From: Nosocomiicoccus ampullae | GTDB lineage: Bacteria > Bacillota > Bacilli > Staphylococcales > Salinicoccaceae | Assembly (NCBI RefSeq): GCF_019357495.1 | Contig: NZ_CP079110.1 | Coordinates: forward strand, 744,001-808,000 | DNA length: 64,000 bases | Direction: 5' to 3' | Part shown: positions 23,984-45,049 of the stretch, piece after piece | How the letters are laid out: every line of letters starts with the position of its first letter | How positions within the stretch are numbered: position 1 is the first letter of the stretch | Notes under the pieces: generated by a model | What the model was told of the DNA's origin: nothing | The model's database searches: none | Seen by the model: the letters and a program-made list of their open reading frames with translations, nothing else | Made by a program: the position numbers and the translations under genes

Positions 23984-24030
23984 GAATTCGGATACAGAAA
24001 TACTAAACAAATTTGATATTTTCGGTTGAA

Positions 24031-24118
24031 CAGTGTCGGAGAGAACGTATTAACGTCGCCGAAGGAGCAAGCCTTAAAGGTGAATCTCTCAGGCAAAAGG
24101 ACGGCATTGTGACGAATC
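24031..24118 (+). ncRNA. glycine riboswitch aptamer (gcvT element), single copy
   Basis: The conserved core is present in order: CGGAGAG near 24037, GCCGAAGGAGCAA at 24058-24070, then CTCTCAGGCAAAAGGAC at 24086-24102. The outer helix is GAGAG with CTCTC. Only one full aptamer is visible; the usual tandem partner is missing and the flank GCATTGTGACGAATCCTGAAG may be the reduced partner helix. Followed by a terminator and gcvT, so it should switch glycine cleavage on when glycine is abundant. Confidence 0.92.
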
Positions 24119-42009: not shown

Positions 42010-42031
42010 TTATTGTTTCTCGTCTTTTTTC
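41991..42031. terminator. shared convergent terminator that codes both C-termini
   Basis: AAAGACGAG-T-AAACAATAA (41991-42009) pairs with TTATTGTTT-CTCGTCTTT (42010-42027), then TTT. recN ends at 42009 and the leftward gene at 42010, so each arm encodes the last residues of one gene. Confidence 0.9.
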
Positions 42032-42258
42032 ATAAATCTTTCTTGTGCACGATTGTTTTTACGTTCTCTATATAATACATAACCTGCAACAAACCATACA
42101 CCTAAAACTAATAGTATAAGGCCAATTAAAAATTGTAAGACAAGTGAAGAAAATGGCCAAATCGTAATTCCAAATATACTATCACGTATTAATTTCACAC
42201 CATAACCTGCAAAAATAACAGGAATTACTAAAATTAATAGTGCAATTATTTTTTTCAT
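42010..42258 (-). CDS. DUF2627 small membrane protein (YqzF type)
   Basis: 82 residues from ATG 42258; an in-frame GTG 12 bases earlier is inside the likely ribosome binding site. Two membrane helices (about 2-22 and 35-62) and the motifs GVKLIRDSIFG and GYVLYRERKNN fit DUF2627, found downstream of recN in Bacillus. Function unknown. Confidence 0.8.
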   Translation of the reverse strand: MKKIIALLILVIPVIFAGYGVKLIRDSIFGITIWPFSSLVLQFLIGLILLVLGVWFVAGYVLYRERKNNRAQERFMKKDEKQ

Positions 42259-42408
42259 TGAATCAAACACCTGCTATTACTAAACTAACTTTCTCACTTA
42301 ATTTAGTTTAGTCTAAATAATAGGACACGGCAAGTGAATAGCGCTTTAATCTTTACAAATAAAAAAATTAACATTACACTTTAATTATTAAAGTAAAGAG
42401 GTGCTATT

Positions 42409-42846
42409 ATGGATTTAGATTTCAAAATATACATGGAAGATTTAGTAGAAAATGCTAGAAAAGAATTAACAGATGTTGGATACGAGCAACTTCTAACACC
42501 TGAGGAGGTAAATGAAGCGCTCGACAAAGAGGGTACTGCCCTTGTGATGATTAACTCAGTATGTGGATGTGCAGGTGGTATCGCAAGACCAGCGGCAATT
42601 CACTCACTAAACTTTGATAAAAAACCTACTCATTTATATACAGTGTTCGCTGGACAAGAAAAAGATGCGACTGAGGCAGTTCGTGAACGCACTCCAGACT
42701 TTTTACCTTCATCTCCAAGTTTTGCGTTTTTCAAAGACGGAAAAGTGGTAGATATGATAGAGAGACATGAAATTGAAGGACATGACGTAATGAGTGTTAT
42801 TACGGATCTTCAAGCATGGTTCATGGAACACGGTGATGATATTTAA
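42409..42846 (+). CDS. bacilliredoxin (YqiW/BrxB family)
   Basis: 145 residues. Thioredoxin-like fold with the CGC active site in [14 protein letters not shown] at about 46-59. Removes bacillithiol from mixed disulphides after oxidative or electrophile stress. AGAGGTG precedes ATG. BrxA and BrxB share this motif and cannot be told apart here; its genomic place favours YqiW/BrxB. Independent unit with its own terminator. Confidence 0.92.
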
Positions 42847-42878
42847 AAAAAGTGGTCCATTTTTGGACCACTTTTTAT
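42847..42878 (+). terminator. bacilliredoxin gene terminator
   Basis: AAAAAGTGGTCCA and TGGACCACTTTTT form a 13-base perfect stem. Symmetric flanks let it also end the leftward Prli42-like gene. Confidence 0.92.
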
Positions 42879-42976
42879 TATAGTGCTGTAAGGTAGCTAA
42901 GACCCATTAGTAAGCCTGAAACAACGATTAAAATAACCATTGCCCAAATAATAATGTTTTGCATTTTTTTTGGCAT
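42878..42976 (-). CDS. Prli42-like 32-residue membrane microprotein
   Basis: A 33-codon frame from ATG 42976 to TAA 42878. It starts MPKKMQNII, then one hydrophobic helix (about 8-30) with the turn VVSGLLMGLS. Basic start, one helix ending in a small-residue-rich LLxGLS motif and 31-32 residues are the features of Prli42, the membrane anchor of the Listeria stressosome. GAGGG lies 8 bases upstream. Between the bacilliredoxin gene and pepT-like gene, convergent with the former. Conservation elsewhere would confirm it. Confidence 0.75.
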   Translation of the reverse strand: MPKKMQNIIIWAMVILIVVSGLLMGLSYLTAL

Positions 42977-43058
42977 TTCATGAACCCTCATTTACTCGTA
43001 TTTATATTTTTTATGATACTTGTAATATTAACAATAATCAACTAGGAGTGGAAAATTA

Positions 43059-44174
43059 ATGAACAAAGAAAGAGTAGTAGAACTGTTGAAAGAATTAGTT
43101 CAAATTGATTCTGAATCAGGTGAGGAACGAGAGATTGCAGATTATCTATTTTCTTTATTTGATGAATTAGAACTTAAAGGTTTTGAAGATGACACACAAG
43201 AAAAAACTGGTTACGGTGCAGGTAACTTATTTTTTACGTTAGAAGGTAACAAAAACATCGAACCAATTTGTTTTATGGTTCATATGGACACAGTAAAACC
43301 AGGTAAAGGTGTTAAACCTGAAGTTAGAGATGGTTATATGTATTCTGATGGTTCAACAATTTTAGGTTCTGATGATAAAGCTGGAGTTGCAGCTGTAATA
43401 GAAGCAGTACGTACGATTAAAGAAAGTAACATTCCACATGGTGACATCGAAGTAATTGTAACTGTTGGAGAAGAAACAGGACTTGTTGGGGCTAAAGCAT
43501 TTGATACTTCAGTTGTTAAAAGTAAAATCGGATATGCTGTGGACGGAACAGGGCAAGTAGGTACAATTGTAAACCGTGCACCTGCACAAAATAAAATTGA
43601 AGCTCATATTCACGGTAAAAAAGCACACGCAGGAATTGAACCAGAAGTCGGGGTTTCAGCAATTAACATCGCAGCTGAAGCAATTAGTAATATGACACTT
43701 GGACGAGTAGATGACGTTACTACAGCAAACGTAGGACTTATTAAAGGTGGAGAAGCAACAAATATCGTTGCAGACAATGCATATATTCTTTTAGAAGCGA
43801 GAAGTCTTGAAGAAGATAAACTCGCTAAACAAACAGCACATATCGAATCTAAATTAAAAGAAGCTGCTCATAAACTTGGTGGAGAAGTTGATGTTGATAT
43901 TGACTTTATGTATCCAGCACTTCACTCTAAAGAAGATTCAGACGCTGTGAAACTTGCATCAGATGCAGCTGTAAAAATAGATCGTGAGCCAAATATTATC
44001 GCTTTAGGTGGCGGTAGCGACGGTAACATTTTTGCTGGTCAAGGTATCGACACAGTTATTTTAGGTCTAGGTTATGAAGAGATTCATACAACATCAGAAA
44101 GAATGCCACTTGAAGAATTATATAAAATTACAGAACTAATAATTAAAATGGTTGAATTACAAGCAACTAAATAA
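43059..44174 (+). CDS. M20 family peptidase (PepT-like, YqjE)
   Basis: 371 residues. Di-zinc aminopeptidase fold: MVHMDTVKPG (His/Asp), GSDDKAGVAAV (bridging Asp), VTVGEETGLVGAK (catalytic and metal Glu) and GGGSDGNIF. The lid domain lies at about 185-295. Closest to the peptidase-T-like YqjE group of Bacillus; peptide substrate unproven. ATG follows TAGGAGTGG. Own terminator. Confidence 0.9.
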   Translation: MNKERVVELLKELVQIDSESGEEREIADYLFSLFDELELKGFEDDTQEKTGYGAGNLFFTLEGNKNIEPICFMVHMDTVKPGKGVKPEVRDGYMYSDGSTILGSDDKAGVAAVIEAVRTIKESNIPHGDIEVIVTVGEETGLVGAKAFDTSVVKSKIGYAVDGTGQVGTIVNRAPAQNKIEAHIHGKKAHAGIEPEVGVSAINIAAEAISNMTLGRVDDVTTANVGLIKGGEATNIVADNAYILLEARSLEEDKLAKQTAHIESKLKEAAHKLGGEVDVDIDFMYPALHSKEDSDAVKLASDAAVKIDREPNIIALGGGSDGNIFAGQGIDTVILGLGYEEIHTTSERMPLEELYKITELIIKMVELQATK

Positions 44175-44177
44175 CAA

Positions 44178-44208
44178 AAATGCCCGTTTATATAGACGGG
44201 CATTTACT
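44178..44208 (+). terminator. terminator between the YqjE-like and AraC-like genes
   Basis: AAATGCCCGT (44178-44187) and ACGGGCATTT (44195-44204) with AT-rich ends on both sides; serves both convergent genes. Confidence 0.85.
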
Positions 44209-45049
44209 CTATATATGGCTGCCACACTTGAATAATTGAAGGATCATCGATAGAATGTGTTAAACCTTTTATCAGTTCAATTGAAAAAGTGAGATCTAAA
44301 TCGTTGTTTTCTTTAACGAGCCATCTTCTAAAAATATATTCGTATAAACTTTTTATTTCAGTCGACACTTTTCCGTCTGTTTCAAAAATTTGATAATCAC
44401 CTGCTGGAATATATGTCGAATTAAACGGTGTGTTCATATCAGAAGCAGTTCCGACAAATACTTGTATATCTCCGTAGCTATATCTCTCCATTATAAATAA
44501 CCCTTTAAATGATCCATTATTATGTTTTAAAATTTCAGCGATAATGCCACTATTTAAAAGGTAGTTTAAATATCTCATTTTCTTTTTATGATTATAATCA
44601 TTCATATTAAAAAATTCTTCCACACCGATTAACCTAACCCCTTCAAGTGAACGCATTTCAGAAAACGGCTCTCGTTTAGTCGTTGGGTTAATTTCAAATG
44701 AAACTCTATGTTGAAGTGATATTTTATCTATATATTTATCGGTATCATAAACACTAATACCGAATTCTTTTTGATAGTCACTTTTAAATTTTGCTAAATC
44801 TTTATGGTTATAATATTTTATAATGTCTGTCAGACGTCGATGTCCCTCGTAAACCTCTAATGCGATTTCTGAAAGTTGACGACGTTTTTGATAATCAGTC
44901 GGTGACATACCAACTAATGCATTAAATAAAGTTAAAAAACTTTTTGATTCAACATCCATATCCATCAATACTTCGTCAAAATTAATATCTTCACGTAAAT
45001 GATCTTCTATAAAAACAATAAACTGCTCAATAAAATGTATAGAATCCAC
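44204..45049 (-). CDS. AraC-type regulator with a GyrI-like effector domain
   Basis: 281 residues. The N-terminal 100 residues look like a diverged double helix-turn-helix (FIEDHLREDINFDEVLMDM, then LVGMSPTDYQKRRQLSEIALEVYEG, then FKSDYQKEFGISV). Residues about 115-280 resemble the GyrI/BmrR ligand domain (VRLIGVEEFF, YIPAGDYQIFETDG). This is the Rob-like layout, with the expected second recognition helix poorly conserved. Ligand and targets unknown. Divergent from rnz. Confidence 0.75.
   Translation of the reverse strand: MDSIHFIEQFIVFIEDHLREDINFDEVLMDMDVESKSFLTLFNALVGMSPTDYQKRRQLSEIALEVYEGHRRLTDIIKYYNHKDLAKFKSDYQKEFGISVYDTDKYIDKISLQHRVSFEINPTTKREPFSEMRSLEGVRLIGVEEFFNMNDYNHKKKMRYLNYLLNSGIIAEILKHNNGSFKGLFIMERYSYGDIQVFVGTASDMNTPFNSTYIPAGDYQIFETDGKVSTEIKSLYEYIFRRWLVKENNDLDLTFSIELIKGLTHSIDDPSIIQVWQPYIE

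Follow-up and report, generated by a model that had tools for sequence, protein, structure and literature searches.

Gene Arrangement and Local Signals

The DNA analyzed here, referred to as the window, is a 64,000-nucleotide stretch of the Nosocomiicoccus ampullae genome (1.55 Mb in two contigs, rated 99.56% complete). Within it, a short minus-strand frame lies between a bacilliredoxin gene and a peptidase gene, together with the following features:

42409-42846, plus strand: BrxA/BrxB-type bacilliredoxin gene, convergent neighbor (TIGR04191, 186.7 bits)
42847-42876, both strands: hairpin, a likely bidirectional terminator common to brxB (+) and prli42 (-), found by folding
42878-42976, minus strand: prli42 ortholog, based on reading frame, NF033880 match, family conservation and pS/pN
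42985-42989, minus strand: Shine-Dalgarno sequence GAGGG, 8 nt upstream of the prli42 ATG, read from the sequence
43013-43041, minus strand: candidate sigma-A-like promoter (weak), TTGATT-17-TATCAT, in the pepT-prli42 interval
43059-44174, plus strand: PepT-like M20 peptidase gene, divergent neighbor (TIGR01883, 406.9 bits)

The frame opens with a start codon at 42976 and closes with a TAA at 42880-42878, comprising 32 codons plus stop (product: MPKKMQNIIIWAMVILIVVSGLLMGLSYLTAL), and is found exactly where the original prediction had placed a 32-residue microprotein without naming a strand; frame 1 of the plus strand over the same interval contains several stops. The predicted ribosome binding site is present as well, and AAGG- or GAGG-type sites also occur in the stretches upstream of the orthologs. 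An alternative in-frame ATG lies upstream at 42991 (37 codons) and overlaps the Shine-Dalgarno site, and the start conserved among relatives is the ATG position just before the basic motif. The stop had been described as adjoining a terminator: the hairpin, which begins directly after the brxB stop and ends one base from that of prli42, has folding energies of -19.4 kcal/mol on one strand and -18.0 kcal/mol on the other (z about -6). A consensus terminator scan of the region reported none, this hairpin included, presumably because its A-tract pairs with its T-tract. The promoter candidate is rated as weak because six such sites occur in the region, compared to a mean of 3.8 in shuffled sequences.

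Further features were noted in the surroundings: a gene for a DUF2627 protein (PF11118, 106.8 bits) adjoins brxB at 42010-42270 (minus strand), and a putative regulator is encoded at 44204-45049 (minus strand), in which a Cass2 domain is recognized (PF14526, 29.1 bits against a cut-off of 27) and HTH_18, at 26.5 bits, stays below its threshold of 33.6. Elsewhere in the window, a glycine riboswitch aptamer (RF00504, 74.7 bits) is located at 24026-24114 on the plus strand.

Conservation and Coding Constraint

The family sample consisted of 33 genomes, including N. ampullae, with three from its own genus. An intact frame is present at the same place in 33/33 of these related, and hence not independent, genomes, in each case with brxB convergent, with the PepT-like gene starting on the opposite strand at a distance of 75-85 nt, and with an upstream site of the ribosome-binding type. 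The starts chosen by script were ATG in 30 frames, GTG in two and TTG in one. Conservation beside brxB and a coding pattern of substitution had been proposed as checks of the original prediction, and both speak for it: across 527 of the 528 family pairs (one pair without synonymous change was left out), pS averages 0.76 and pN 0.21, both uncorrected and with synonymous change near saturation in distant pairs. Broken down by codon position, variation affects 23 (first), 12 (second) and 30 (third) of the 32 codons.

The shortness of the frame and its scores below curated cut-offs could be taken to indicate a chance open frame or a conserved non-coding element. Given an intact frame with a ribosome-binding-type site in all 33 genomes, and substitutions that are predominantly synonymous, this explanation has a negligible probability, and a chance frame is ruled out by the 33/33 conservation and by a pN far below pS. 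The 32-residue frame is a real gene under protein-level selection, of a kind that is easily missed.

Relationship to Prli42

The proposed likeness to Prli42, a microprotein of Listeria monocytogenes, was borne out by synteny and by the sister genera, but not by the protein's own score. The N. ampullae protein reaches 22 bits (E 1e-4) against the Prli42 model NF033880, below the cut-off of 27.5, and 19.6 bits over residues 7-27 against DUF4044 (PF13253), below the gathering score of 21.8; other scanned orthologs match DUF4044 less well or not at all. In contrast, the Phocicoccus and Jeotgalicoccus orthologs that were scanned at the protein level exceed the NF033880 cut-off with 32.3 and 31.9 bits. 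The orthologs of these genera occupy the same locus and are 66-75% identical to the N. ampullae protein, from which they differ by a tail that is one residue longer and retains the third basic residue, replaced by Asn in N. ampullae. At E values up to 1, NF033880 matches all 33 family genomes (22 over cut-off), but also 8 of 14 control genomes, and position therefore counts more than score.

The gene shares its genomic position with members that pass NF033880, and a related arrangement is seen further afield: of 18 Prli42 loci examined outside the family, 13 have a PepT-like gene, a BrxB gene or both no more than about 2.6 kb away, and the neighbors are usually antiparallel to the microgene. 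At the four of these loci that belong to family f2 (Staphylococcus by inference) both genes are found at the microgene locus. Conversely, none of the flanks examined at 36 brx loci outside the family (L056-L091) contained a Prli42-like frame (0/36), perhaps because these loci contain the other brx paralog. From its position, and by transitivity via the sister genera rather than by cut-off, the gene is classified as a prli42 ortholog.

Compared with the published description of Listeria Prli42, the N. ampullae protein has a similar length (about 31-32 residues), a basic N-terminal tail and one hydrophobic helix. The basic residues are given as K4, K5 and R8 in Listeria (PMC6614362), and correspond to K3 and K4 in N. 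ampullae. It differs by the Asn in place of the third basic residue, by its sub-threshold model score and by the failure to find an RsbR to which the protein could bind.

Predicted Architecture and the Basic Tail

Hydropathy and AlphaFold2 agree on a short protein with one predicted transmembrane helix, as is characteristic of Prli42. AlphaFold2, supplied with 13 sequences, predicts a single helix over residues 3-31 with a mean pLDDT of 93.2, and hydropathy averaged over 19 residues peaks at residues 8-26. A search for solved structures with one relative (E up to 1) found none. The helix carries an SGxxxGxS motif in all 33 family proteins, and a GxxxG arises in 6.9% of shuffled versions of the hydrophobic part of the N. 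ampullae protein. The GxxxG form is not general, however: in many other sequences its first position is occupied by S or T, and f5 sequences lack the second glycine.

Binding of Listeria Prli42 to RsbR is affected when K4, K5 or R8 is mutated, and three RsbR glutamates matter for it as well (PMC6614362). Two of the three equivalent basic residues are kept in N. ampullae, and the R8 position is Asn in all three genomes of its genus, where the tail may be drifting. In the family as a whole, the first nine residues carry a net charge of +3 in 26 of 33 proteins and of +2 in the remaining seven. Among the 30 best matches from the class-wide sample described below, a choice biased toward model-like sequences, the corresponding charge is +3 in 9/9 carriers of RsbS and +3 or +4 in 21/21 sequences from RsbS-negative genomes. 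Tail charge is kept without a stressosome, and topology or another partner might account for it.

Stressosome Genes in N. ampullae and Its Family

The original prediction raised the question whether this organism keeps stressosome partners of the RsbR type. The searches answer it in the negative: the N. ampullae genome contains no match to Rsbr_N (the RsbR N-domain), to an RsbS profile (E up to 0.001) or to an RsbT profile (E up to 1e-10), the latter two built from 20 Bacilli loci. Among the 33 family genomes, Rsbr_N does not exceed its cut-off in any, with sub-threshold scraps in 11 (E up to 0.1), and RsbS yields nothing convincing, the one partial match reaching 20.9 bits (G011). RsbT was searched in the four family genomes that are part of the class sample. 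The sister genera Phocicoccus and Jeotgalicoccus are likewise without Rsbr_N over cut-off and without an RsbS match.

STAS domains were traced individually in N. ampullae. One lies in a 126-residue frame that encodes a 110-residue RsbV-like protein and is located beside RsbW; two others fall into frames of 506 and 490 residues, and a sub-threshold match into one of 294. The operon in question has the order putative mazF-like gene, rsbU, rsbV, rsbW, sigB; RsbW scores 218.1 bits and SigB 410.8 bits.

These results bear directly on the possibility that the microprotein anchors a stressosome as in Listeria, with partners that are still to be found. Similarity to Prli42 in sequence and locus would be in its favor, but Rsbr_N, RsbS and RsbT are undetected in a genome rated 99.56% complete, Rsbr_N and RsbS have no convincing match throughout the family, the one short gene for a stand-alone STAS protein resembles rsbV, and the other STAS matches lie in the longer frames listed above. 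Stressosome anchoring in N. ampullae is largely refuted by the negative genome searches and must be regarded as very improbable.

Prli42 and Stressosome Genes Across the Bacilli

The class sample comprised 398 Bacilli genomes, which are related to one another and not independent. NF033880 matched 205 of them at E up to 0.01 (159 over cut-off; about four chance matches expected), and as only the best first-look candidates per genome were scored, some Prli42 genes may have been missed. RsbS was called from a best match at E up to 1e-30, with the next genome near 1e-16, and is present in 71 genomes, 61 of which have Prli42; conversely, 144 of the 205 Prli42 carriers lack RsbS. Rsbr_N was found in 59 genomes, all of them among the Prli42 carriers (Fisher's p 9e-20, a value that ignores relatedness). 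Within this sample Rsbr_N thus implies Prli42, but not vice versa. The nesting is in line with the interaction described in Listeria, and can be read as pointing to a genuine functional link where RsbR exists. Consistently, where RsbS occurs without Rsbr_N, Prli42 is present in only 2 of 12 genomes.

In asking about stressosome partners, the original prediction noted that Staphylococcus lacks them. This contrast is not informative here: 34 f2 genomes, mostly of genus g7 (Staphylococcus by inference), carry a Prli42 match (G319 does not), and none of the 108 genomes with any RsbS-profile match belongs to f2.

Other combinations of these genes were noted as well. Rsbr_N is missing from all 10 genomes (seven f12, three f37) in which RsbS occurs without a Prli42 match. 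Seven f4 genomes (G058, G092, G107, G187, G216, G244 and G271) have RsbT-profile matches with E values from 3.6e-51 to 1.1e-63 and no RsbS match, and have perhaps kept RsbT without the stressosome core. In G172, the RsbS match spans positions 42-118 only and is accompanied by RsbT and Prli42 matches in the absence of Rsbr_N; this genome may hold a decaying stressosome.

SigB in Prli42 Carriers Without RsbS

If Prli42 has a role apart from the stressosome, it could still serve the SigB pathway. SigB exceeds its cut-off in 83 of the 144 Prli42-positive, RsbS-negative genomes (56/80 plus 27/64). Of the other 61, 42 show a divergent match (196-213 bits) and the remaining 19 weaker matches only, most of which score 140-175 bits and presumably represent sporulation sigma factors. 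Prli42 is over its own cut-off in 12 of these 19 genomes. Conservation of sigB has, however, been reported for the Bacillales, Geobacillus and Paenibacillus included (PMC9847131), so the case for SigB independence is no more than suggestive. Independence of Prli42 from SigB is, in this sense, only partly supported.

Proposed Role of the Prli42 Ortholog

The following model appears to fit the observations best. The N. ampullae protein would be a single-pass membrane microprotein, whose basic N-terminal tail is probably cytoplasmic and whose single helix crosses the membrane. The small-residue face formed by SGxxxGxS would be suited to helix packing, possibly as a helix pair, and the tail could be offered to a cytoplasmic or membrane partner. 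In this way, the protein might recruit or modulate a membrane-proximal partner other than the stressosome, and stressosome tethering as in Listeria would be one lineage-specific use of Prli42. We assign a probability of roughly 0.6 to this reading, i.e., a stressosome-independent role of the N. ampullae ortholog with tethering being lineage-specific, because the gene is conserved and constrained, no stressosome is detectable, and Prli42 is widespread without RsbS. It is opposed by the missed curated cut-offs, the perfect nesting of Rsbr_N, the relatedness of the genomes, and the Asn at the R8 position. A broader proposal, to which we lean by a narrower margin, holds that Prli42 is misnamed: it might be an old microprotein of the Bacilli whose original partner was not the stressosome and which possibly acted outside of SigB control, with the tethering of RsbR (Rsbr_N) arising later.

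The published work on Prli42 considered here comes from Listeria. There, Prli42 also pulls down RsbR paralogs, including RsbL (PMC7705745), and membrane localization of RsbR1 depends on Prli42, although deletion causes no stress-survival defect (PMC9840623). In a cryo-EM study, by contrast, the contact between RsbR and Prli42 is reported to matter under oxidative stress (PMC6614362), and the two accounts disagree on the importance of Prli42 in stress. The passages retrieved in our literature search, which did not extend to the founding paper (Impens 2017), describe Prli42 only as a membrane tether of the Listeria stressosome and contain no statement that it is widespread without one. A selected ortholog in a family without a detectable stressosome, together with the lack of RsbS in most carriers, suggests that the work in Listeria shows only part of the function. 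Bacteria without a stressosome would accordingly offer a clean setting for studying the other part, and the presence of a stressosome should not be deduced from the automatic label “stressosome-associated protein”.

Possible Alternative Partners

Small membrane proteins provide a precedent for a rather different role: most of the well-characterized bacterial examples work within larger complexes or target larger membrane proteins (PMC11539335). The microprotein could, by analogy, serve one specific membrane protein, such as a transporter or enzyme, as a subunit or regulator that makes contact via helix packing and has no relation to stress control. The invariant SGxxxGxS of the family would fit such a function, as would the occurrence of above-cut-off Prli42 matches in genomes whose SigB-model matches are only weak. 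On the other hand, the gene stands alone, usually antiparallel to its neighbors, so that no operon partner serves as a pointer, and outside of the family the GxxxG form is not general. We consider this possible but rather unlikely.

Another candidate is RsbU, of which the N-terminal part, RsbU_N, is the RsbT-binding region in Bacillus subtilis (PMC12143880). In sigB lineages without a stressosome, the basic tail could dock on an acidic RsbU N-domain and bring the phosphatase to the membrane, thereby replacing the input from RsbT. N. ampullae RsbU indeed keeps RsbU_N (58 bits, cut-off 25.5) in a genome without an RsbT match, its first 84 residues have a net charge of -13, and the corresponding regions of three other family members range from -15 to -17; the 83 of 144 RsbS-negative Prli42 carriers with SigB over cut-off would also be compatible with docking. 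However, N-domain charge shows no general difference between RsbT-less and RsbT-bearing sets (means of -8.8 in 13 vs. -6.0 in 15 sequences, p 0.30), where the former consists of N. ampullae and 12 of 15 loci (three without an RsbU match) and the latter of 15 of 20 loci (four without a match, one too short). Acidity may moreover reflect salt adaptation only, and the 61 genomes with a Prli42 match but no SigB over cut-off speak against docking as well. Docking on RsbU is thus unlikely and the more doubtful of these two alternatives, and a stressosome-independent role as outlined above remains our preferred reading. As a minor observation on the operon itself, transposase-like frames, apparently of the IS3 type as judged by eye, are located near rsbUVW-sigB at locus L042 (positions 142-1535).
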